From a virus, in the IMG/VR virus record IMGVR_UViG_3300001097_000002, positions 1 through 64,000 of that record: a stretch of 64,000 nucleotides of DNA; one strand, written 5' to 3'. The notes under the pieces are model-generated. The model saw nothing but the letters and a program-made list of their open reading frames with translations, did no database searches and was not told the origin of the DNA. The position numbers and the translations under genes are program-made. This document shows, in pieces, positions 5,955 to 60,551 of the stretch. The first letter of the stretch is position 1. The number at the start of each line of letters is the position of its first letter.

Positions 5955-7559
5955 ATGGAAAGTATATACACACAACTTGATGATGACATACACAATATAC
6001 CTAACGTGTATAAAAAGAACGGTGCATATAATGGTTCCGCTCTTAACAGTAAAAAGAACAAACATATCATTGATAATGTTAAAGAAGTCACTGATTTCTT
6101 AAAAGACACTGTTAAGTTGGCTGAACGTATATATTGCATTGTCAATAAACTATACGAATATCCAACGTGTGCATGTGGTGGTAAAATTACACTATTCTAT
6201 AACGAAGGTGGACGCAAAGAATATGCTGATTATTGTTCGCGCGGTTGCCCTGCTAAACGTTCAAATAGCGCTGAATATGCTACTGGTCGCACACCAACAC
6301 AAGCGTCTAAAGATAAGCAAAAAGAAACAATACTTGAACGCTATGGGGTTGACAATTATTTTAAAGCGCCAGATTTTATCAAGGATAATTATAATGATGA
6401 ACTAGTAGCTAAGCGCGACGCTAATAGAAAAATAGCAGTACAAGAAAAATACGGAGTGGATAATGTATTCATGCTCGATAATGTTAAGGAAAAAATAAAA
6501 GACACCAATATAGACAAGTACGGTTTTCCTAACTACGCACAAATTAATATGAGTGATGATACACTTGAAAAAATTAATTCATATGACTATACGAGTGGAG
6601 TTAATAAACTATATAATCCTAGTCATATAGGACGTATGTTAAGCGTGCATAGTACAACTGTAATGGCGTATTACGAGCGTCTCGATATTGTACCAATAAA
6701 ACACAACGAAACAGCGTGTGAAGTGGTTATACGTGAGATATTAGATGCTTGTGGTGTATTATATGAGCAAAACTATACTAAGCTTTTAGGTGGTCGTAAA
6801 CACGTTGACTTCTACATACCGTCTCACAAACTAGCAATTGAATGTAATGGTTTATATTGGCATAGTGAAGCCATTCGCACCGATGTTAATTTCCATCAAG
6901 AAAAATATGAATTATGCACACAACAAGGTATACAACTTATACAATTTTGGGAACATGATATATACAATAACACTGACGTCATAGCATCATTTATCAAGAA
7001 TAAACTTGGATACAGTAAAAAAATATATGGTAGAAAATGTAAGACTATAAAGATTGACGCCAATACAGCATCGTTGTTTGTTATTGCCAATCACTTGCAA
7101 CCGTTAAAAACCAATAGTATTCATCAAGCATACGGTTTATATTATAATGACGAACTATGTTCGGTTATGACGTTTAATAATACAAACAAGCCCATATTAA
7201 GTAGATTTTGCACTAAGAAAAATCATGTTGTTGTCGGTGGTTTTAGTAAACTATTAAAACATGTAATATCCACAAACAACTTCAATACAATCACCAGTTA
7301 TAGTGACTGTATGTATAGCACCGGTAACATATACCATAATACTGGTTTCATTGATGTGACAAATAATGCAAGTGTATCTTATTACTATACTGATAACTTT
7401 ACTAGTTTAGTTAATAAACGCGTGTTTAGAAAAGACAATATTAAAAAAATGTATCCAATGACGTATTCACCTAATAAAACAGAGCGTGAAATGACCGCGG
7501 AGCTAGGTTTTACTCGAGTTAACGGTTGTATAATTAAAACGTGGGTGCTTGAACTGTAA
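5955..7559 (+). CDS. Homing endonuclease, Vsr-like (PD-(D/E)XK) with DUF723-type repeats
   Basis: 534 residues. The N-terminal part has a Cys cluster (CACGG ... CSRGC, about residues 74-96) and repeated ERYGVDN/EKYGVDN/DKYGFPN units typical of DUF723 DNA-binding modules. The nuclease core (about residues 280-350) has HVDFYIPSHKLAIECNGLYW followed by HQEKYELC and IQFWEHDI, the signature of very-short-patch-repair-like nucleases. A Vsr-fold homing endonuclease family was described with fractured, split-intein genes in phage metagenomes. A homologous enzyme follows directly. Probably a selfish free-standing endonuclease; target unknown. Confidence 0.8.
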   Translation: MESIYTQLDDDIHNIPNVYKKNGAYNGSALNSKKNKHIIDNVKEVTDFLKDTVKLAERIYCIVNKLYEYPTCACGGKITLFYNEGGRKEYADYCSRGCPAKRSNSAEYATGRTPTQASKDKQKETILERYGVDNYFKAPDFIKDNYNDELVAKRDANRKIAVQEKYGVDNVFMLDNVKEKIKDTNIDKYGFPNYAQINMSDDTLEKINSYDYTSGVNKLYNPSHIGRMLSVHSTTVMAYYERLDIVPIKHNETACEVVIREILDACGVLYEQNYTKLLGGRKHVDFYIPSHKLAIECNGLYWHSEAIRTDVNFHQEKYELCTQQGIQLIQFWEHDIYNNTDVIASFIKNKLGYSKKIYGRKCKTIKIDANTASLFVIANHLQPLKTNSIHQAYGLYYNDELCSVMTFNNTNKPILSRFCTKKNHVVVGGFSKLLKHVISTNNFNTITSYSDCMYSTGNIYHNTGFIDVTNNASVSYYYTDNFTSLVNKRVFRKDNIKKMYPMTYSPNKTEREMTAELGFTRVNGCIIKTWVLEL

Positions 7560-7680
7560 AGCGTAGTATAAAAAACCGTAATATATTCACCACATATTTT
7601 GTGTTAAAACTCTTGTATTATTACTCTAAATAACATATGATACGGTATTGTGTTGCTTTATATAAAATTTGAGGTTGTAT

Positions 7681-9279
7681 ATGAACAGAGTTGAAATTAC
7701 TGCATTTATAAAAAATAATGCATATACTAGCAATGGTAGATTACGGCCAAATTATTTAGATAAACACCCATCTATAAAGACTGTGATATATGATGCGTTG
7801 CCTTTTATGCCGACAAGTGCTTATCAAAGCGATTATATAAAAGCATACATTAGTGAACTAGACACAACTAATAACATTGTGCTTGAATTATACGATACTA
7901 AGATAAAACCAAAACAAATAGCCAAAAAAACAAAAATAGATGATGAAGTGGTGTACGCAACATTAAAATACCACAATATAATTAAAGGTTTTAGTTTAAA
8001 CTATGTTAGTAGCGAGCAAAAAGTCGTTGATTTGTATGATAGTGGGTTATCAATATATGATATTGCGAAACGTGTAGGTACTAGTGTTTCGCCAGTAAGA
8101 CGTATATTAAAAGAAAATAATATCAATATGCGATTAACAAAAATGATAATTGATGAAGAAGCTGTTTTGTTAGAGTATGTTACCAACAAAAACACTATCG
8201 CTTATATATCTAAACTATTTGACTGTTCCGTTACAGTAATAAATAAGATTCTTATAGAAAACGAGGTACTTAAAAATAACCACCTATTAGATGCATCTGT
8301 CATGAACGAAGCCATTTTAGAATATTTAAGCGGTGTCACTGGAACATACGTAGCACTCAAATATAATGTATCAACAACTGCAATATATAAAGAAATGGAA
8401 CAACGAGGTATGACTAGACGTTCTAGTACATATTACTCGGACACAGACATTGAGTTGATAATTAAAGATATACTCGATAAACACAACGTACATTATGTAA
8501 AAAATGATAGGGAACAGATAGGACCAAAAGAGTTAGATTTTTATCTACCTGAATATAATCTTGCTATCGAATGTAACGGGTTATATTGGCATTCATCTCA
8601 TAATATGACCTCTGTTGATTGTCACTATCAAAAGTTTAAAATGTGCGATGATAAAAATATACAGCTCTTACAATTTTGGTGTAATGACATTAAGCAGAAG
8701 TATAATATTGTTGAGTCTATAATAAAAAATAAAATAGGTTTATCAAATAGAGTATTTGCTAGGAAGTGTGAAGTAAAGGATGTTGACGGTACAATGACCA
8801 GACAATTCTTAGTCAATAATCATATACAAGGGTACGCTACAAGCTCAATTAATAAAGGTTTGTACTACAACGATGAATTAGTAATGATTATGACTGTTAG
8901 TAAAAGCAGATTCGACAAAGGTTCTTATGAGTTAATACGAGTAGCAACTAAACTTGGCTTAGTAGTGGTTGGTGGGTTTAGTAGACTATTGGTTAATATA
9001 AGGCGTTGCGTTAACAGTGCTATCTTAACCTATTGTAATCTAATGTATGGTAATGGGAATGCATATTTAAAAAATGGTTTTAGGTATATTGAGGATACCT
9101 CAGTTGGATATTTTTATCATAACACTACCAACATCATTATTAGTAGGTATAAACTACAAAGTAAAAAGTTTAAAGACTCAATAGAATATGACTACAATAT
9201 CAACGAGAAAGATAATATGTTAAATGCTGGTTATTACATGTGTAATGACGCAGGAAATAGAAAATATATTTTTGAATGA
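7681..9279 (+). CDS. Homing endonuclease, Vsr-like with helix-turn-helix repeats
   Basis: 532 residues from ATG 7681 (GAGG upstream). The C-terminal half is homologous to the previous gene: ELDFYLPEYNLAIECNGLYW, then YQKFKMCDDKNIQLLQFWCN and a shared extension (VVVGGFSRLL). The N-terminal half differs: several helix-turn-helix-like units such as DIAKRVGTSVSPVRRIL and YISKLFDCSVTVINKIL. So two enzymes share a nuclease but have different DNA-binding parts. Ends at a bidirectional terminator. Confidence 0.8.
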   Translation: MNRVEITAFIKNNAYTSNGRLRPNYLDKHPSIKTVIYDALPFMPTSAYQSDYIKAYISELDTTNNIVLELYDTKIKPKQIAKKTKIDDEVVYATLKYHNIIKGFSLNYVSSEQKVVDLYDSGLSIYDIAKRVGTSVSPVRRILKENNINMRLTKMIIDEEAVLLEYVTNKNTIAYISKLFDCSVTVINKILIENEVLKNNHLLDASVMNEAILEYLSGVTGTYVALKYNVSTTAIYKEMEQRGMTRRSSTYYSDTDIELIIKDILDKHNVHYVKNDREQIGPKELDFYLPEYNLAIECNGLYWHSSHNMTSVDCHYQKFKMCDDKNIQLLQFWCNDIKQKYNIVESIIKNKIGLSNRVFARKCEVKDVDGTMTRQFLVNNHIQGYATSSINKGLYYNDELVMIMTVSKSRFDKGSYELIRVATKLGLVVVGGFSRLLVNIRRCVNSAILTYCNLMYGNGNAYLKNGFRYIEDTSVGYFYHNTTNIIISRYKLQSKKFKDSIEYDYNINEKDNMLNAGYYMCNDAGNRKYIFE

Positions 9280-19160: not shown

Positions 19161-19238
19161 GTGCCCTTAGTTTAGCGGTCTAAAACACACAGCTCATAAC
19201 TGTCGAGAGCGTGAGTTCAAATCTCACAGGGCGCACCA
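19161..19238 (+). tRNA. tRNA-Met (CAT)
   Basis: Acceptor GTGCCCT/AGGGCGC with encoded CCA, anticodon loop CTCATAA, T-loop TTCAAAT. CAT could also be read as lysidine-modified Ile; this cannot be distinguished here. Confidence 0.9.
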
Positions 19239-19263
19239 TATATTTATATTATTGGAGTTACTA

Positions 19264-19530
19264 ATGAAAGATTTATTATTAGAAGTAATGAAGCTCAATA
19301 AAAATAACAAACACTGGACTAAAGTGTTTACAACAGAACATCCTATGTTGTATCTATTCTCACAAAACTATTACATTAAGGTTTATGAGAAAGATAGTGA
19401 TACCGCGATACTTGGCGCTATAAGTACAATTAACGATAAGTTGTTAGACACTATACATTGCCATACGGATGTAGACGCTGTAAATACAACTATAACAGTG
19501 CTTGTACATAGACAAAAAAGTATGTTATGA
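19264..19530 (+). CDS. Hypothetical protein (88 aa)
   Basis: Leader TTTATATTATTGGAGTTACTA directly before ATG 19264, only 25 bases after the tRNA. Alpha/beta, soluble, unknown. Confidence 0.6.
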   Translation: MKDLLLEVMKLNKNNKHWTKVFTTEHPMLYLFSQNYYIKVYEKDSDTAILGAISTINDKLLDTIHCHTDVDAVNTTITVLVHRQKSML

Positions 19531-19598
19531 TAAGCATATCAATTAGATGTTAAATTAATTTTTATATATTATAGTAAGTACAAGTAAAAAAAGAATAT

Positions 19599-19686
19599 GG
19601 AAGTCAGGCGAATACGGTTTGTCGCACCGGACTGTAAATCCGGCACTCACCATAGTATTTGGGTTCGAATCCCAAGGCTTCCACCA
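19599..19686 (+). tRNA. tRNA-Tyr (GTA)
   Basis: Class II tRNA: acceptor GGAAGTC/GGCTTCC, anticodon arm CCGGA-CTGTAAA-TCCGG, variable arm, T-loop TTCGAAT and encoded CCA. Confidence 0.92.
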
Positions 19687-19690
19687 TTTA

Positions 19691-19765
19691 CGGGTCTAGC
19701 TTAATTGAATAAAGCGGCATACTATGGTGTATGTAGACATTGGTTTGATTCCAGTTACCCGACCA
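19691..19765 (+). pseudogene. Degenerate tRNA-like sequence
   Basis: CGGGT...ACCCGACCA ends and a GCTT/AAGC D-stem are present, but the anticodon stem CATAC/GTATG encloses only six bases (TATGGT), the T-loop lacks the usual C, and the acceptor has a mismatch. Pro-like acceptor ends, no clear anticodon; probably a decaying tRNA. Confidence 0.5.
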
Positions 19766-19794
19766 CTTTTAATAATAGTAGGAGATATACAATA

Positions 19795-20162
19795 ATGAAA
19801 ACGTTTGAAGAGTATTTACAAGAAAGTAGTTCACGTGATGGGTATTTTGGTGTCCTGCCACACCAGGTGAAATACCGTTACTTGATGTTGTTCAACGCGT
19901 ATTGAGTCAAAAGAATATTGATTTTACAGTTTTTCCATCGCGTGGTCTTGGTGATACTTTTATTACAGTTGAATACACACAATATAATGAAGCGTTAGGT
20001 ATTGTTGATAAAAAACTTGCTAATTTTGAACATTTAGGTAATAAAGGTCGTGTTATTGATACCGTGGTAGTTCGCACATCGCAAGACTCACGTATTACTA
20101 ATGCTGTTTCATACACTGCTAAAAGTTCTGGTAAAGGTGTTACTAAAAAAGTAACTAAGTAA
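19795..20162 (+). pseudogene. Capsid-targeting-leader protein with frameshift
   Basis: ATG 19795 (AGGAG upstream) starts MKTFEEYLQE|S, close to the T4 targeting peptide. This frame stops at 19905 (36 aa). The -1 frame is open from about 19840 and reads EIPLLDVVQRVLSQKNIDF on to 20162, with good coding character but only a TTG (19902) as a start. One base change near 19855-19870 would join them. Either a broken gene, a sequencing indel or programmed frameshift; no classical slippery heptamer was found. Confidence 0.55.
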
Positions 20163-20229
20163 ATGTTTAATACGGTCATGTAGGTTAAGACTAAAGTTGC
20201 AATTGATACTTAAAATCCTACCCTAATAC

Positions 20230-20305
20230 ACTTCCATAGCTCAGTTGGTAGAGCAGTAGCCCGATAAGCTATTTGTCCCTGGTTCAAGTCCAGGTGGAAG
20301 TACCA
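20230..20305 (+). tRNA. tRNA-Ile (GAT), with C33
   Basis: Acceptor ACTTCCA/TGGAAGT, D-arm AGCTCAGTTGGTAGAGC, anticodon arm GTAGC-CCGATAA-GCTAT, T-loop TTCAAGT and CCA. Position 33 is C instead of the nearly universal U. Confidence 0.88.
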
Positions 20306-20534
20306 CTTTACATAGATGTTTTAGGGATGCGTTAGTATAAGAAATCATAGTATGCGGAATAATTAACCATTACATACTAGGATTGGATATTAGGCGTTAA
20401 TGTCTGTCTGTTGTACACCAGAAACACATTAAACTTGAGCTTATTACAACATTACTATGATGGTAGTGGAGATGTTCCAATATGACGGGCACGCATCCTT
20501 AAAACATTTACTTTTTATATTATTGGAGTTATAT

Positions 20535-20807
20535 ATGATTTATGTTCTACTAGTTATTTTTATTGGATTTTGTATTGCGTGTTTGGTAACTTTTATGCGT
20601 AGTGAAAGACCCTCAAAAGTTATGTGTAAAAAACATATCAGCAAACAGATTGCTAAGGTTTTGAAAAAAGAACAGAAGTTTGCCAATGCTGCTAAACGCG
20701 CTAAAAATAAAGGAGATTTTAATTTAGTAGCAGTTCATCGCTTGAATGAAAGTATCTTCTTTAAAAAGCGTAGAGAGTTAGAAAAAGATTTAGATTCAAT
20801 GATGTAA
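20535..20807 (+). CDS. Small protein with N-terminal membrane anchor (90 aa)
   Basis: ATG 20535 follows TATATTATTGGAGTTATAT. Residues 2-22 (IYVLLVIFIGFCIACLVTF) form one membrane segment; the remainder is strongly basic and helical (KKEQKFANAAKRAKNKG). Unknown. Confidence 0.6.
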   Translation: MIYVLLVIFIGFCIACLVTFMRSERPSKVMCKKHISKQIAKVLKKEQKFANAAKRAKNKGDFNLVAVHRLNESIFFKKRRELEKDLDSMM

Positions 20808-20814
20808 CAATTAT

Positions 20815-20900
20815 GGAAGGTAAACCAACGAGGTGTTGGAGCCGCCTGCTAAGCGTACTGTCTGTAACCGGATACATTTCGATTATGTTGCCTTCCTCCA
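20815..20900 (+). tRNA. tRNA-Ser (GCT)
   Basis: Class II: acceptor GGAAGGT/GCCTTCC, discriminator T and CCA, D-stem CCAAC/GTTGG, anticodon loop CTGCTAA, variable arm, T-loop TTCGATT. The anticodon stem has only three good pairs. Confidence 0.8.
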
Positions 20901-20916
20901 TATTTAGGATTATATT

Positions 20917-21144
20917 ATGAACGCTCTATTGTTACACGTTAAAAAACTTGTAAATACTATCAAAAAGCGCTATGATAAAAGAATGTATTGCGTTATTACT
21001 ACGCCATTAAATACTTATAGAGGCGTTGATTATAGTTCATTACGTGTTACAGTTGATACTTTGCAATTTGACTATTACGGTGCTACTGTATACGTAAGTA
21101 ATGACACCGTTAAGATTAGTTTAATACACAACCAAAGGAAATAA
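20917..21144 (+). CDS. Hypothetical protein (75 aa)
   Basis: Basic N-terminus (HVKKLVNTIKKRYDKR), beta-rich remainder. Sits between tRNAs; AGGATTATATT before ATG. Unknown. Confidence 0.55.
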   Translation: MNALLLHVKKLVNTIKKRYDKRMYCVITTPLNTYRGVDYSSLRVTVDTLQFDYYGATVYVSNDTVKISLIHNQRK

Positions 21145-21148
21145 TATA

Positions 21149-21391
21149 ATGCTATCGTTTGAAGAATATATCAATGAAAGTAAAAGTGCAAAACTAGGTC
21201 AGGCTGACAAACTGTCAAAGGCAAATGAGTTTAAAGATGAAGTTCGTTATACTGCCACTGTTGGTGATGATGAATATGAAGTATTTGTCGCTAAGTCAAC
21301 AAGTCTTGATAAAAGTGAAACTCTAGCTACACTTAAAACTAAGAAAGTTGCTGTTAATCGCACAACAAAGAACAATATTACAGTTCGATAA
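21149..21391 (+). CDS. Putative internal head protein with capsid-targeting-like leader
   Basis: 80 residues, MLSFEEYINE|S at the N-terminus, then a Lys/Ser-rich small beta-domain. Small, basic and with the cleavable-type leader, like T4 internal proteins. Ends 7 bases before tRNA-Asn. Confidence 0.65.
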   Translation: MLSFEEYINESKSAKLGQADKLSKANEFKDEVRYTATVGDDEYEVFVAKSTSLDKSETLATLKTKKVAVNRTTKNNITVR

Positions 21392-21398
21392 TTAATAA

Positions 21399-21474
21399 TG
21401 CTTAGTAGCTCAGTTGGTAGAGCAGTAGACTGTTAATCTATTGGTCGCAGGTTCGAGCCCTGCCTAAGCAGCCA
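21399..21474 (+). tRNA. tRNA-Asn (GTT)
   Basis: Acceptor TGCTTAG/CTAAGCA, anticodon arm GTAGA-CTGTTAA-TCTAT, T-loop TTCGAGC, discriminator G and CCA. Confidence 0.93.
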
Positions 21475-21572
21475 TTTTAAAATTAGCTTTAGGTAACGAT
21501 GTGTATTATGTTTTAAGGCACACCCTAAGGACAATGGTTCTACTAGTCCCATGTCTCAATACTAGTAATTAC

Positions 21573-21648
21573 GCTGGAATAGCTCAGTTGGTAGAGCAGG
21601 GAACTTGTAATTCTCAGGTCGTGAGTTCAAATCTTACTTTCAGCACCA
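21573..21648 (+). tRNA. tRNA-Thr (TGT)
   Basis: Acceptor GCTGGAA/TTTCAGC, D-arm AGCTCAGTTGGTAGAGC, anticodon arm GGGAA-CTTGTAA-TTCTC, CCA encoded. Confidence 0.93.
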
Positions 21649-36447: not shown

Positions 36448-36924
36448 ATGCAAACAGAACACATAACCGCGGAAAATTATCAATATAAGTTACCATTTGA
36501 CAATAAAGAAGGCAAAGACGTTTTTCGGTACATACCGCATGCACCAGAGATTGAGGATGTTGACGAGGATTTTAAAGAAAAGAACTGCTATAAGAACGAT
36601 ACTTTTATTAGGGGTGCGTATGTCAGTTACCCATACACTAAAGAACATCTTGATGAAATGAAACGTTGCAAAGACGATTCTTTTTACTTTATCCAAAATT
36701 ACGTAAGAATTAACACGCTTGATTATGGTGTACGGTTATTTGACCCTTTCCAGTATCAGAAAAATATGATTAAGATGATGGACGAAAATCGTTTTACAAT
36801 ATTTACAACTTCACGCCAAGCGGGTAAATGCGTGCACGGTACTACTGAAATAACAGTGCGTAATAAAACCACTGGCTTGATAGAAACAGTTGAGATAGAA
36901 GATTTCTTTTCGCGTTTTGAGTAA
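36448..36924 (+). CDS. 17: Large terminase gp17 N-fragment fused to split-intein N-fragment
   Basis: 158 residues. Residues 1-127 match the start of T4-type terminase: LFDPFQYQKNMIKMM (adenine-binding Q motif) and TIFTTSRQAGK, the Walker A loop up to its Lys127. Instead of the expected Thr-Thr, residues 128-158 begin CVHGTTEITV and continue to IEDFFSRFE before the stop. A Cys1 start with a Gly-Thr-x-Ile beta-strand is an intein N-terminus; 31 residues fits the atypically early-split inteins known from phage terminases (AceL-TerL, 25-residue IntN). Activity requires trans-splicing with an IntC-terminase C-half, not found in the window. Confidence 0.88.
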   Translation: MQTEHITAENYQYKLPFDNKEGKDVFRYIPHAPEIEDVDEDFKEKNCYKNDTFIRGAYVSYPYTKEHLDEMKRCKDDSFYFIQNYVRINTLDYGVRLFDPFQYQKNMIKMMDENRFTIFTTSRQAGKCVHGTTEITVRNKTTGLIETVEIEDFFSRFE

Positions 36925-36927
36925 CCA

Positions 36928-36953
36928 CAAAAAAGGAGTGTAAACACACTCCC
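36928..36953 (-). terminator. Terminator (minus)
   Basis: GGAGTGT/ACACTCC hairpin followed on the minus strand by TTTTTT; ends the 36974 gene against the convergent gp17 fragment. Confidence 0.75.
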
Positions 36954-36973: not shown

Positions 36974-37207
36974 CTAGGCAACCTCACCATACAGTGATAC
37001 AACCAAATCTTTTAATGCTTTAAGTCGGTAATCATATGCTGGATAATATCCCAATTTAACTTTTCCATACGTTGAACGCGCCATACCAACTTCATCTGCA
37101 ATTTCATCACCGATGAAATCTTTATTAATTATGTGGTGTAAAGCAACAAAGCGTTTATTGTTAGTGCTTGCTGAATGTTGGTCACGAACGTTACAGGTTG
37201 GTTTCAT
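36974..37207 (-). CDS. Small helix-turn-helix-like protein (77 aa)
   Basis: DEIADEVGMARSTYGKVKLGYYPAYD resembles a helix-turn-helix and matches GVIANKLSIPTSSFSKIKLGYFYA in the 38182 gene (same spacing, shared F[V]xLH and KxKLGY). Predicted DNA-binding regulator, paralogous to that gene. Confidence 0.6.
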   Translation of the reverse strand: MKPTCNVRDQHSASTNNKRFVALHHIINKDFIGDEIADEVGMARSTYGKVKLGYYPAYDYRLKALKDLVVSLYGEVA

Positions 37208-37305: not shown

Positions 37306-37872
37306 ATGTTTTTAAAGTATAGCGTAATGCTCAATATTATTTTAGTTATGTTATCAGTGACTTTATTTTACAAGTACGACAAAACAGTAAAAGAAGTAGA
37401 ACTGGTTAAACTTAATTGCGAATTATCAATAACCGAATCTAACAATGATATTATTAAGGATAACATAATAGAACTTACACGTATTAAAGCATTACAAGAT
37501 AAACAACATCAAAAATTCTTAGAGGTCAACGATGAACTTATTAACACGCAACAAAAATTCAATGCTGACATTAGCGCTGTTAACGCTACTAATGAGCGGT
37601 TGCTCATTGATGCACAAGAAGCAAGAAGTAAAGCCTTTACCACAGATATCAAATCTGACAACCGTTCAGAAGCCTTACGTGAATATGCAACTATTAGAGA
37701 AGGATTACATGATGAATGTAAATATTCACTTATTGAGGTCTCAGAAGATGCTACAAGACTTCAGCAAAAAGTATTAGAATTTGATAAAAAATGGGATATC
37801 CAAAGTGATACTATACTAGGATTATCAGCCAATAAAAAAGCCGACACTAGTGACTTAGTACCGGCTCAGTAG
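37306..37872 (+). CDS. Rz: i-spanin (Rz-like)
   Basis: 188 residues. One N-terminal membrane segment (residues 5-23, YSVMLNIILVMLSVTLFYK) followed by a long periplasmic coiled-coil region (residues 30-150), the Rz organisation. Joins with the nested Rz1 lipoprotein to fuse inner and outer membranes at lysis. No endolysin or holin gene is recognised next to it. Confidence 0.8.
   Translation: MFLKYSVMLNIILVMLSVTLFYKYDKTVKEVELVKLNCELSITESNNDIIKDNIIELTRIKALQDKQHQKFLEVNDELINTQQKFNADISAVNATNERLLIDAQEARSKAFTTDIKSDNRSEALREYATIREGLHDECKYSLIEVSEDATRLQQKVLEFDKKWDIQSDTILGLSANKKADTSDLVPAQ
37532..37777 (+). CDS. Rz1: o-spanin lipoprotein (Rz1-like), nested in Rz
   Basis: 81 residues in another frame wholly inside the Rz gene; GAGG lies 6 bases before the ATG. 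Signal LALLTLLMSGC with lipobox MSGC (Cys24), then KKQEVKPLPQI. Complete embedding of Rz1 in Rz is a known spanin gene arrangement. Confidence 0.82.
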   Translation: MNLLTRNKNSMLTLALLTLLMSGCSLMHKKQEVKPLPQISNLTTVQKPYVNMQLLEKDYMMNVNIHLLRSQKMLQDFSKKY

Positions 37873-41689: not shown

Positions 41690-42775
41690 TTAAAAGAATG
41701 TTTTTCTGTTATGTGATTTCTTCTTGCCTACGCTTGTATCCTCAGTGGTTACATTAGCGCTTGCAACTAGACCATTATCAATATTTTCTCCATCACCAAA
41801 CTTAAATATTGAACCTGAATGACGAATGTTATAATTTAATAGTTTAGTAAATGATTCAAGCGGACGCATAAACGTCACTTCAAACATATTTTTTCTGTCT
41901 ATGTAATTGTCAAGATTAAACTCCTTTGGTAATTCATCAGGATAACCAATTACAGTTGAGTTAAGTGGATTTCCGTCTACTAGGTCAAGGTACTTAATTT
42001 TACTGCCGCTTTTGATTATGGGGTGGTTCTTAGTATGGATATCACTACTTCTAACAAAGTTGTTATATGTTATAGCAGCGCGTACATGTTTAGGACAACG
42101 CTTGATAGGTTGATTGTTTTCGTCACTCCATTTCTCAATCCCGTTAACACCTTTTGGATATGCAATTTTATTAGGATGTAGGTTTTTATAATCATTTCTA
42201 AATCCCTTAACATACTTGCGCAAACCGTCCTCGTCGCGTGTAACCATATATTTAATACATTCTGTTAGGCTGTTACGTATGACCGCAGGTGTAGAAGTCC
42301 TATTGGTTTCAATACCAAGCATTTTAAGTTTAGGCTCTGTATAACGTACGTGCTCCATATCATATACGTTTAATATATAGTTCTTTTTAGCTCGGAAAAT
42401 AGCACAATCACAAATTGCCTCGCGTTTCATTATCAATCTGTTTTCCATACCGTTTAAGTATTCTGATAACTCACCGTAAGATTTTTCTATAAATGGTTCA
42501 ATATTATCATGTACGTATTCGTCAATTATTGTTATTACTTCATTAGTATCAGTATTGACTGGTAAACTGTCAACCAATGGTGCAACTGTAAAATATAGAC
42601 TATCAGTGTCACCATAAATTGTATAGTCTATATTATTAGTTTTAAATTGTTCATTTAAAAAACCATTAAGCTTTTTCTCCATATATTTAATTGCCAATTG
42701 ACCTGTAGACGTAACAGCTTCTGCTATCTCACGTTTGAAATAACGAAAGCCTTCATTTCCAATCGCACCATAACC
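41690..42775 (-). CDS. 43: DNA polymerase gp43 C-terminal piece, exon 2
   Basis: Begins GYGAIGNEGFRYF, the second half of polymerase motif B, right after the predicted intron. Motif C TIYGDTDSLYF holds the catalytic Asp pair; KMLGIETNRTSTP and KYLDLVDGNPLNST follow as in T4 gp43. The tail (VGKKKSHNRKTFF) would be the clamp-binding end. A TTG at 42778 is in frame, but it lies in the intron end, so splicing from exon 1 is the preferred start. Confidence 0.88.
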   Translation of the reverse strand, partial: GYGAIGNEGFRYFKREIAEAVTSTGQLAIKYMEKKLNGFLNEQFKTNNIDYTIYGDTDSLYFTVAPLVDSLPVNTDTNEVITIIDEYVHDNIEPFIEKSYGELSEYLNGMENRLIMKREAICDCAIFRAKKNYILNVYDMEHVRYTEPKLKMLGIETNRTSTPAVIRNSLTECIKYMVTRDEDGLRKYVKGFRNDYKNLHPNKIAYPKGVNGIEKWSDENNQPIKRCPKHVRAAITYNNFVRSSDIHTKNHPIIKSGSKIKYLDLVDGNPLNSTVIGYPDELPKEFNLDNYIDRKNMFEVTFMRPLESFTKLLNYNIRHSGSIFKFGDGENIDNGLVASANVTTEDTSVGKKKSHNRKTFF

Positions 42776-43076
42776 CAAGATATTAATTCTGAACCGATAA
42801 CTAACCTCAGAATAAAAGTATTTTACTACTTTTGCAACATGTCACCATGTTGATTAGACTATATCATGACCCATTCTCCAGGGCCCTCACCGTTTCCAAT
42901 ACTCTTGTATTGTACTCTACTAACTGCGATTAAGCGCTTTCGATAGTCGTTGCACGCATCCCGTAGGACTTTGTACATGATTGTCTTATTGTGGCTCAAT
43001 AAGAGTTCCCATGTTTAGATGAGTTATTCACTTACACATTACCATGTAAGGCAGCAGTCTTGTTTTACTTGCTTTT
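42776..43076 (-). ncRNA. Group I intron (IA2-like), no ORF, in gp43
   Basis: About 301 bases. P7/P3-side elements are typical: GTGCAACGACTATCGAAAGC (R region) and GATATAGTCTAATC (S region), then CAACATGGTGACATGTTG, almost the hairpin of the T4 td intron at the same place. The 5' exon ends CAGT, pairing with GCTG in the intron to give P1 with the U-G splice-site pair; the intron ends in G (CTTG). Removal joins ...KILANS to GYGAIGN, restoring motif B. Confidence 0.88.
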
Positions 43077-43181
43077 ACTGTTTGCAAGAATCTTGTAGGC
43101 GTATTGTAGTGCGTCTTCTCTGCTAACATCGTTCTCTAATTCAGCTATGCGTTTATTAATAGACGCAATATCTTTATACAT
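43077..43181 (-). CDS. 43: DNA polymerase gp43 exon 1 (start of the C-terminal piece)
   Basis: ATG 43181 begins MYKDIASINKRIAELEND and ends QYAYKILANS at the 5' splice site; KILxNS is the first half of motif B. Without splicing it stops three codons later. AAGGA lies 11 bases upstream. It overlaps the preceding small frame by 8 bases. Confidence 0.75.
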
Positions 43182-43290
43182 ACTTTAAATATTCCTTATC
43201 TTTTGATACGATTGGATTATCGTAATTAAATATGTAACGTTTATCAGTATATTGTTGATACATAATAAACTTAATATCACTTAATTCCAT
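43174..43290 (-). CDS. 38-codon polymerase palm segment in a third frame
   Basis: Begins MELSDIKFIMYQQYTDKRY and ends KDKEYLKYV. The ATG overlaps the stop of the middle piece by 14 bases and its stop overlaps ATG 43181 by 8. By position it is the palm insertion between motifs A and B. Either it is translated as a coupled peptide or two single-base changes broke one reading frame. Confidence 0.5.
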   Translation of the reverse strand: MELSDIKFIMYQQYTDKRYIFNYDNPIVSKDKEYLKYV

Positions 43291-43999
43291 CTTTAATCAT
43301 ATCCTCTCTGAGAGCATATAACTTTTGTAACTCTCTTTCGCTGTCTTTCATACCACTCTTAATAACACTACGAGTATCAAACAAGTTTTCCATAGTGGCT
43401 GCAATAACACCAATTTTGTCTTTTGAATACAATGTACCATTAGCAGCAAGGCAATAATCTTTTTCGTGTGCTATTTTGGTACTATATTTCATATCTATCA
43501 TACTGTTTAATATATCGTCTACGTGCTCCTTTGATTTCATCACAAGAGTTTCAGCGCTCATGTTTAGCATCATTATGATAGATGGATACAAGCTTTTTAA
43601 ATCGCCACTAACAACCCAGTCAGTGCGTCCTAATACAGGTTCTTTAACGTGACCACCCATATAACTTTCACCGCCCTCAGCGTATACTTTAGGAGGTATG
43701 ACAATGCTATCTCTATCAAGTCTAGCGTAAATCATATTGTCCCATGGTTGCACGGTTGCAAAAATATCACTTGGGTTACTACGGCTTACGTGTGCAAATG
43801 ATAACGCCACCTGAATAAAGTTTAGCTTGTTATCAAGTTTAGATATTAATACAGTATCAGTCTCGTTATAGTCAATAAATGTGTTGAAGCTGTCCTGTTT
43901 AACTTTTTGGTTAACATCATCATATAATTTCTTAAGCTGTTCAAAACTCAACTTGTCAAGATGGTTCTCGACAAGCATTTCATACTTTTTTAAATTCAT
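43277..43999 (-). CDS. 43: DNA polymerase gp43 middle piece
   Basis: 240 residues. Carries exonuclease motif III YNETDTVL (Asp48) and polymerase motif A GDLKSLYPSI (132-141), plus MSAETL as in T4 (ISPETI). The N-terminal 30 residues (LKKYEMLVENHLDKLSFEQL) are helical and may replace the join with the N-terminal piece, 5.5 kb away. No intein residues are seen at either end, so the parts probably assemble non-covalently, as in Aeromonas phages with split gene 43. Confidence 0.85.
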   Translation of the reverse strand: MNLKKYEMLVENHLDKLSFEQLKKLYDDVNQKVKQDSFNTFIDYNETDTVLISKLDNKLNFIQVALSFAHVSRSNPSDIFATVQPWDNMIYARLDRDSIVIPPKVYAEGGESYMGGHVKEPVLGRTDWVVSGDLKSLYPSIIMMLNMSAETLVMKSKEHVDDILNSMIDMKYSTKIAHEKDYCLAANGTLYSKDKIGVIAATMENLFDTRSVIKSGMKDSERELQKLYALREDMIKDGIK

Positions 44000-49115: not shown

Positions 49116-49520
49116 CTAAAACAAATCAACTATATTCTCAGAAAGTATTCTTGCGAAATCACCATCTAACGGTTTTGAGTTATACACCATATTGTGCTTG
49201 ATTTCAGCAATTGACAATCCTGACGGTTTAGATAGTTCTACTGCTAATGCGTTAACATTTCGCAGCGCAACATCATTAATTATATTATCCTCGTTTTCTG
49301 CGCAATACTCCCATAATGTCATCAGTAATTCAGTAGTCATCATTTCAGCATATGCTAAGTTTTTAAACTGATAAGACATAACAATTGCTCTGGCGGTTGG
49401 CCTATACATTGTAACCGATACACCACTAAAATTTGATAATTGCATCGCCACTTCTATTTGATATTGTAGGCTAACAATCAAGTCGCCATCATCAAACTTA
49501 ACAATTTCTTTAAATGTCAT
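49116..49520 (-). CDS. Hypothetical protein (134 aa)
   Basis: GGAGGAGAACA before ATG; the start overlaps the end of the polymerase N-piece by 11 bases. Helical. Unknown. Confidence 0.6.
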   Translation of the reverse strand: MTFKEIVKFDDGDLIVSLQYQIEVAMQLSNFSGVSVTMYRPTARAIVMSYQFKNLAYAEMMTTELLMTLWEYCAENEDNIINDVALRNVNALAVELSKPSGLSIAEIKHNMVYNSKPLDGDFARILSENIVDLF

Positions 49521-50709
49521 TGTTCTCCTCCAACATCATATCAAGTCTTGTGGCAACCATAGTTCTAATCCTTGCCCATCGGTCTTTTTCTGGTAGTTCT
49601 TCAATGTTTGTTTCTTCTGGTAGTTCTTCAATGTTTGTTTCTTCTGGTATATCATACACACCACAATACAAGTTCATTAGACTGTCTTTGTATTCGCTAT
49701 AATTTACTTTTTTCTCGCCAAGCTCAACATCAGAAATATGGTCAAGTGTATATCGTTCTTGCTTAGCCTTTGCGTACTGTTTATATAATGCCATATAGTC
49801 TAAATGAGTAAGACCAAAGATATTATATTCTAATGATGGTGCTCGCTTGTTTTCTTTAATAACGTTCTTACCGTATGCACTAAATGGACTTAGTTTATTA
49901 GTAACAGCGTTACCTACAATCTTTCTAGCGCGAGTTACAAGATATGGTATATCAAATAACACACCAAACCAACTAGTGATAAAGTCAAACTGTTCGTCTA
50001 CAAAAACGTTGATAAATGCCGTAATCAGTTCTTTCTCATTTCTACATTGTAGATACTCAATATCCGATTTTCCAGTATACCCTTTTAATCCAAGTCCGCC
50101 TGTTTTAACAATGTTATGTCCAACGATAACTTGATAGGTGATACTAAGAATTTCAGCAATTGCATCCTCGGGTTTCGGAAAGCCGATGTTCTGGTCAGCA
50201 TACGTAGAGTCTTTATACCAAACCATTTTTTTATAGAACGGGTCCATCACTTTAATATCAGCAAGATTATCGAAGTTTTTAATTTGTTTGTAAAATGCTT
50301 CTTTAGTTGGACCCTTACCTTCTTTATATACAACGGTGTCGAAATTCGTATATGTAAAACCATCACCATGATTAACTTCAATATCAAAGGATATCGTTTT
50401 ATACAAAGGTTCGTCCACGCTTACTTCTTCATACTCCTTTGATATAAATTGCTGTATAGGTGAAGTGTTTCCGAATATATTTTCCATTTGGTTGTTGTGT
50501 ACGAAATCATTAAGCTTATATATAGTATCAAATTCGATACGTTTTAACTTGTCACCATACAAACTAATATAGTCTCCACTTATACTTTTTGTGAATAGTT
50601 CATATGGATAGTTTTTTACAATCTCAATATGACGTTCACCATCTTGTATATAACGATGAAACAGCGTGTCGCCCATTGTTCCCACGAACGTATAATACCG
50701 CTTACTCAT
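49510..50709 (-). CDS. 43: DNA polymerase gp43 N-terminal piece (exonuclease part)
   Basis: 399 residues. Exonuclease motif I ISFDIEVNHGDG and motif II region FDFITSWFGVLFDIPYLV are present; the usual Asn of the NxxxFD motif is Phe or shifted. HLDYMALYKQYAKAKQERYT and DVELGEKKVNYSEYKDSL match the stretch just before motif III, which is encoded on the middle piece. The C-terminus ends with two copies of EETNIEELP from a 27-base tandem repeat (about 49590-49650) and a short helix. It cannot have full exonuclease or polymerase activity alone. Confidence 0.88.
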   Translation of the reverse strand: MSKRYYTFVGTMGDTLFHRYIQDGERHIEIVKNYPYELFTKSISGDYISLYGDKLKRIEFDTIYKLNDFVHNNQMENIFGNTSPIQQFISKEYEEVSVDEPLYKTISFDIEVNHGDGFTYTNFDTVVYKEGKGPTKEAFYKQIKNFDNLADIKVMDPFYKKMVWYKDSTYADQNIGFPKPEDAIAEILSITYQVIVGHNIVKTGGLGLKGYTGKSDIEYLQCRNEKELITAFINVFVDEQFDFITSWFGVLFDIPYLVTRARKIVGNAVTNKLSPFSAYGKNVIKENKRAPSLEYNIFGLTHLDYMALYKQYAKAKQERYTLDHISDVELGEKKVNYSEYKDSLMNLYCGVYDIPEETNIEELPEETNIEELPEKDRWARIRTMVATRLDMMLEENNDI

Positions 50710-59870: not shown

Positions 59871-60551
59871 ATGAGCGGTTTTAGACAATACCTAAGGGAA
59901 AATGCAGACAACAATGAACAGTCACTTAACGAATCATCAATTACAAGATTTTTAAGACACTTCCAAAAATATGATGCTGCTATTATTACAGCTTTCCGCG
60001 ATGGTTTTACAAAACGCGAAAACAAAGCGCGTAATAAAGAGTTATTCTCAGCACTTTATGCGGCTGGCTACTCAATTACTCGAGTGGATGGTAGCTACAT
60101 TGAGAACTTTGATACTAAAGACGCTGTCACAGTAGCAGAAGAATCTTACGTTGTTGTCAACTACAAAGAAAAATCAAACTTTCATGCCACTATCAAAAAA
60201 CTTGGTATCAAATACGAACAGGATAGTGTATTACTTATCCACAGTGGTGATAAACCGTCTGCCGAATTATTTGGCACTAACAGAGATTCAGTCTGGCCTG
60301 CGTACGGTACAGGTGAAAAGACTGGTAAATTATCATTATCAAGTGGAAATCAATTCTTTACGCGCCTACGTAACAAAGAATTTGCGTTTCTGACTGATGA
60401 AGACAAAGAGGAAAAGCGCAAGCGTAATAACGGAAAGGTTAATGAAAACAATTATATTGATGTAGGCGATATTGCACCAACTTCACGTCTAAGTAAACAA
60501 GGTTGTGTTACAGTAGGCAATCGCATTTTAAGCGAATTAGGTCAAATTTAA
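59871..60551 (+). CDS. Putative internal head protein, DUF3293-like, with capsid-targeting-like leader
   Basis: 226 residues, AAGGAG before ATG. MSGFRQYLRE|N leader, a second LNE|S at about residue 20. Residues 30-175 (AAIITAFRDGFTKRENKARN, LYAAGYSITRVDGSYIEN) resemble DUF3293. The C-terminus is basic then acidic. Likely packaged protein of unknown activity. Confidence 0.65.
   Translation: MSGFRQYLRENADNNEQSLNESSITRFLRHFQKYDAAIITAFRDGFTKRENKARNKELFSALYAAGYSITRVDGSYIENFDTKDAVTVAEESYVVVNYKEKSNFHATIKKLGIKYEQDSVLLIHSGDKPSAELFGTNRDSVWPAYGTGEKTGKLSLSSGNQFFTRLRNKEFAFLTDEDKEEKRKRNNGKVNENNYIDVGDIAPTSRLSKQGCVTVGNRILSELGQI

Follow-up and report, generated by a model that had tools for sequence, protein, structure and literature searches.

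The large terminase subunit (TerL, gp17) of a T4-like phage, represented by the 96,886-bp IMG/VR record IMGVR_UViG_3300001097_000002, is very probably encoded as four polypeptides that are joined post-translationally by three split inteins. The window studied here, bases 1–64,000 of that record, contains piece 1, a plus-strand open reading frame (ORF) at 36448–36924 whose 158 residues comprise the N-terminal TerL residues 1–127 and a 31-residue tail. Judged by its sequence, this tail is the N-terminal fragment (IntN) of a split intein at the Walker A motif (site 1). Two further places in the record are homologous to TerL (81895–82617 and 82701–83873; pieces 3 and 4). Both lie beyond the 64-kb window, at least 45,000 bases from piece 1, and each carries a C-terminal intein fragment (IntC). 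Coordinates of all features are collected in Table 1.

A first-pass annotation of the window had proposed that the gp17 frame stops inside Walker A and that its tail is the very short IntN of a split intein at that motif, and both proposals were borne out. Residues 41–129 of piece 1 matched the PHROG terminase large subunit phrog_5989 (E=2.9e-20), and residues 38–128 aligned with T4 gp17 (PDB 2o0h/3cpe; E=6e-13) until the alignment stopped at the Walker A sequence SRQ.GK. The tail past Lys127, CVHGTTEITVRNKTTGLIETVEIEDFFSRFE, scored 43.6 bits with a site-1 IntN profile built solely from inteins of other phages at this site, compared with at most 13.8 bits for 2,000 shuffled sequences. A six-frame scan of the 96,886-bp record with this profile hit the tail alone (E=7.2e-11; next E=1). 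Consistent with an intein N-fragment, the tail has Cys1 at the extein junction and shares homology with the inteins that other phages carry there; we correct the extent of the intein part to the whole 31 residues. Searches of the PDB with isolated 31-residue tails as single sequences gave no match, such tails being too short for this kind of search. The terminator of the convergent gene that had been noted just past the stop was also recovered, 9 bp downstream, as an 8-pair stem with a loop of 4 and then a T-run (36953–36934; 1 found, 0.5 expected from shuffles). A sequencing error confined to one assembly does not explain the stop, because a second IMG/VR assembly, 3300023301_000007 (69,335 bp), shows 100% identity across the 12.5 kb surrounding piece 1.

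The C-terminal part of gp17, described at first as lost, is missing from this ORF but not from the genome, as pieces 3 and 4 lie at 82–84 kb of the record. No full-length gp17 was found elsewhere in the 96,886-bp record, and the rest of TerL appears to be encoded in separate pieces, as the proposed need for a gene elsewhere had implied. The search for ORFs joining an IntC to gp17 recovered these two, although both belong to the other two split inteins and not to the intein of the window. IntC profiles for each site picked out only two IntC-type regions in the record, each fused to a TerL piece. The exteins of pieces 3 and 4 matched T4 gp17 (E=6e-11 and E=9e-30, respectively), and those of pieces 1, 3 and 4 follow the order of T4 gp17, leaving a single gap of ~85 residues. 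Together they show the T4-type arrangement of an ATPase with Walker A and Walker B followed by an RNase H-like nuclease; Pfam Terminase_6N and 6C were matched, and the Walker A, Walker B and nuclease motifs are conserved across the open pieces. Intein 2 is positioned just before Walker B and intein 3 between the ATPase and the nuclease. Piece 4 has an ATG start with its own Shine–Dalgarno sequence, GGAG.

The intein parts of these pieces resemble early-split inteins, which combine an IntN of ~25–37 residues with a large IntC. IntN1 has 31 residues and IntN3 has 28, beginning with Ser1, whereas IntC2 and IntC3 have 119 and ~117 residues, respectively. IntC3 matched CatC, the consensus early-split TerL intein (PDB 6dsl_B), with E=1.3e-18, and IntC2 matched it with E=5.9e-5. 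Both contain HINT strands and end in Asn followed by Cys+1 (SHN/C in IntC3 and SSN/C in IntC2; a slash marks the splice junction). An AlphaFold model of piece 4 (mean predicted local distance difference test (pLDDT) score of 79) matched the T4 and RB49 gp17 nucleases and 6dsl, and a model of piece 3 (mean pLDDT of 63, up to ~93 in the intein part) matched the gp41-1, VidaL and Cat inteins.

Intein insertion at Walker A is common among phages. Searching IMG/VR for the IntC-Thr-Thr junction returned at least 80 loci, and sorting loci by their extein parts gave at least 31 distinct split IntNs at site 1 (31–53 residues, including the one studied here) and at least 17 contiguous inteins. Because all of these share the site, the tail of piece 1 is best read as the N-terminal part of an early-split intein. 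Among the matches listed, Cys was the first residue in 48 of 48 distinct site-1 IntNs, the pattern RNK.TG(E) was common to most of the split ones, and the first and second exteins (E1 and E2), when present as separate ORFs, lay 0–2 kb apart in 46 of 46 loci, a sample biased towards adjacent cases by the 4–6-kb flanks with which loci were excised. Delftia phage PhiW-14 also has a split at site 1 with adjacent pieces. The split in Klebsiella phage TTM-TASP117 was not counted, as it appears to be a contiguous intein whose reading frame has been broken. Beside the gp17 pieces of several phages, we also observed small ATPase-only TerL-like paralogues that have Walker A-like and Walker B-like motifs and no nuclease.

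Terminases with several interruptions were found in other phages. Two IMG/VR contigs of another virus, L103 and L104, hold a complete four-piece TerL as four ORFs in order (E1–IntN1, IntC1–E2–IntN2, IntC2–E3–IntN3 and IntC3–E4), with endonuclease-like genes inside the first two breaks. In L134 and L135, site 1 is split and sites 2 and 3 hold contiguous inteins. The 352,419-bp contig IMGVR_UViG_3300032007_000006 encodes a whole TerL in three dispersed genes, in which two inteins are split and one is contiguous, and in the 305,782-bp contig IMGVR_UViG_3300033498_000048, E1 lies ~14 kb from IntC1. On the minus strand of the latter contig, the TerL N-fragment (222201–222305 and 222610–222861) has a ~300-bp interruption immediately ahead of the intein tail, possibly an intron inside a split-intein gene. 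The TerLs of L103 and of Vibrio phage vB_VmeM-32, when spliced in silico, were gapless at the junctions against uninterrupted TerLs.

Two observations weigh against a terminase of four pieces in this phage. One is that searches of the 96.9-kb record by tblastn, with an extein-2 profile and with IntC profiles did not recover piece 2, the carrier of the partner IntC1. Neither tblastn nor the extein profile detected in the record the ~85 residues that start at the Walker A Thr and run almost to Walker B, and IntC profiles for each site revealed no third IntC there. When IMG/VR was queried with the third and fourth pieces and with the site-1 IntC-Thr-Thr junction, relatives and identical assemblies were found, and piece 2 was not among the matches listed. 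The record is incomplete, because gp13, gp14 and gp15 were not found in it (gp16 sits at its right end), and we therefore expect the IntC1 partner outside the record. IntC1 is present on a separate gene in VmeM-32, L103/L104 and the 352-kb contig. We found no IMG/VR contig reaching past either end of the record, and one other assembly, 3300023301_000007, begins at the same base; its start, at most 2 bases from record base 1, hints at a real end or at a repeat that stops assembly. The other observation is that IntC2 ends in SSN/C instead of the usual HN/C, two residues downstream of the HN/C site of its relatives, which makes its activity and exact junction less sure. One IntC of the 352-kb phage likewise ends in SN/C.

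In the four-piece model, piece 1 would supply the N-terminal part of the ATPase up to the Walker A Lys127 together with IntN1, and piece 2, predicted to lie outside the record, would consist of IntC1, ~85 residues starting from the Walker A Thr, and IntN2. Piece 3 would contribute IntC2, Walker B with the remaining ATPase, and IntN3, and piece 4 would contribute IntC3 and the nuclease. Each IntN would fold into its own IntC and the flanking exteins would be joined, pair by pair, through an acyl shift at Cys1 or Ser1, transfer to Thr+1 or Cys+1 and cyclization of Asn. Because the first cut separates the Walker A Lys from the Thr, no single piece should be able to hydrolyse ATP; piece 1 alone would not bind ATP productively, and a packaging ATPase would arise only after trans-splicing. 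A bolder extension, which we consider rather unlikely, is that one essential enzyme is made from four separately encoded proteins through three mutually selective split inteins, the first of them cutting the ATP-binding loop, and that trans-splicing thereby serves as a check or delay on packaging.

If the TerL pieces were instead decayed remnants, an intact second terminase gene would have to lie outside the sequenced part. The absence of gp13–gp15 from the record leaves room for such a copy, and the penultimate residue of IntC2 is changed. We nevertheless regard decay as improbable: all three pieces are open and retain their Walker A, Walker B and nuclease motifs, the splice residues are kept at the intein ends, and piece 4 has its own ribosome-binding GGAG. 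Moreover, the Walker A and third breaks fall exactly at intein sites of other phages, the second is at most two residues off one, and the dispersed layout recurs in other phages. It is very unlikely that piece 1 is a free-standing protein that does not splice, such as a terminase regulator or decoy. Its solitary position, its own stop with an adjoining terminator and the failure to find a partner in the record would fit such a role, but Cys1 and the RNK.TG pattern are kept, which would be unexpected without splicing, and the record has no other source of a TerL N terminus.

Introns occur in T4-like phages, the DNA polymerase of this record contains a group I intron, and the parts of terL in phage ICP1 are joined by intron splicing (PMC10448857). 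However, it is extremely unlikely that an intron, in cis or in trans, joins the present pieces in place of protein splicing, given that Rfam searches with permissive filters found no intron family in or close to any of the three pieces, the tails are homologous to inteins and 45 kb separates the pieces. A misjoined contig could also produce a dispersed layout, and the record is a metagenome assembly with mobile elements. Such an artefact is scarcely credible here, as two other IMG/VR assemblies are 100% identical, one over the 12.5 kb around piece 1 and a further one over 12.7 kb in the region of pieces 3 and 4. The 69-kb assembly has the same starting point as the record and piece 1 at an equal coordinate, and thus covers ~36 kb on one side of it and ~32 kb on the other.

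Among named phages, VmeM-32, which has a complete genome of ~200 kb, was the best match to piece 1 by identity and coverage. Its gp17 has the same Walker A cut, an IntN piece followed by a terminator, and pieces ~77 kb apart. By contrast with the four-piece terminase, it has only two pieces and a contiguous intein past the Walker B DE. The TerLs of Ackermannviridae (for example, phages Maynard and KWBSE43-6) have a contiguous intein with homologous ends at the identical GK/T point (QSGK/CVRGDSEV...LSHN/TTVV), but in one open reading frame, with splicing expected in cis. Fractured genes, reportedly described by Dassa et al. in 2009, are said to be broken by split inteins whose halves flank a free-standing endonuclease. 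The breaks studied here are likewise split-intein breaks, and an endonuclease gene or domain lies inside the break in L103, L132, L015 and L016, whereas no endonuclease was seen in the breaks of this phage, the pieces of which are far apart. The gp17A/gp17B genes of Aeromonas phage PX29 and the terminase of Vibrio phage VP-1 have a split intein at the third site, annotated as such in the PX29 record; unlike the present phage, they have one break, adjacent genes and an attached GIY-YIG-like domain.

The likeness of the window intein to AceL-TerL, proposed in the first-pass annotation, holds for the early split and the short IntN but not for the site, as the AceL type would correspond to the third break and Walker A is a separate common site. 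The atypically split AceL-TerL, GOS-TerL and Cat inteins have IntNs of 25–37 residues and IntCs of ~104–115 residues (PMC11766414; PDB 6dsl), and a Ser1/Cys+1 pair has been reported for GOS-TerL (PMC11766414). They share with the present inteins a TerL host and a very short IntN, and the third break also shares the Ser1/Cys+1 of GOS-TerL. By contrast, the window intein lies at Walker A (Cys1/Thr+1), and the same protein has two more split inteins. The AceL/GOS site has Cys+1, Glu/Lys+2 and Phe+3, which the window intein lacks (GK/C...N/TT is expected) and the third intein has (EYE/S...SHN/CKF). The Glu+2 in PMC11766414 and the CatC alignment suggest that the third break is the AceL/GOS-TerL site.

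Table 1. Positions of terminase pieces and other features in the record and in related contigs
Feature	Position	Strand	Content or basis
TerL piece 1 N-extein, gp17 residues 1–127 through Walker A Lys (SRQAGK)	36448..36828	+	PHROG 5989, T4 gp17
Predicted IntN1, 31-residue N-fragment of site-1 split intein, Cys1; C..GTTEITVRNKTTG	36829..36921	+	site-1 IntN profile
Stop codon TAA of piece 1	36922..36924	+	read directly; identical in second assembly L007
Intrinsic terminator of convergent gene 36974–37207	36934..36953	-	9 bp past piece-1 stop
Piece 3	record 81895–82617		240 residues: IntC2 of 119 residues (KSSN/), CLYLDEFAF (Walker B) to KFSVEYE, IntN3
Piece 4	record 82701–83873		IntC3 of ~117 residues (ILSHN/), CKFMGSAGTLI, nuclease domain
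DNA polymerase in three ORFs	window 41690–42778, 43277–43999, 49510–50709	-	
352-kb contig, E1–IntN	81.0–81.5 kb	-	
352-kb contig, IntC1–E2–contiguous intein–VLIDE–IntN	~289.4–290.6 kb	-	
352-kb contig, IntC–CAFI–E3–E4	253.0–254.3 kb	+	
ATPase-only TerL-like paralogues	L005:4204–4689, L016:3888–4451, L101:1362–2054, L102:3026–3718		

Several other features of the record were observed. A group I intron (RF00028; 61.8 bits), missed by a gathering scan of the whole window, occupies 42835–43104 between the last two DNA polymerase ORFs, and the first break in the polymerase showed no TerL-type intein. Three free-standing Vsr-like putative homing endonucleases, of a type associated with fractured genes, are encoded at window positions 5955–7559 and 7669–9279 and at record positions 92406–93836 (minus strand); the two in the window belong to phrog_3339. 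Immediately past the piece-1 locus, the nested ORFs 37306–37872 and 37532–37777 resemble by eye an Rz/Rz1 spanin pair, with a membrane anchor and a lipoprotein-like LMSGC. A gene similar to S-adenosylmethionine lyase (59871–60551; PF23780, E=3.7e-15) may encode an anti-restriction enzyme, and six transfer RNA genes are located at 19161–21645.

The dispersed terminase may have originated from a contiguous intein that was fractured by an endonuclease gene, followed by loss of the endonuclease and relocation of the pieces, which would be free to move once the two halves of an intein could act from separate loci. Every intermediate state of this path is represented among the loci compared, and the series from uninterrupted gene to contiguous intein, split with endonuclease, split adjacent and split dispersed traces fragmentation in one family. 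In a limited literature search, we found no earlier report of a four-piece terminase. Phage terminase split inteins have been known one at a time, and here three separate splicing reactions are predicted; our comparisons support such a terminase, split at three intein sites and with its pieces dispersed, as a new form of the known split-intein phenomenon. The large set of early-split inteins, with N-terminal parts of 28–50 residues and side by side in one protein, provides candidates for mutual selectivity. If the four-piece terminase is real, it would be an extreme case of natural gene breaking, in which fragments can leave their original locus once the inteins are split.
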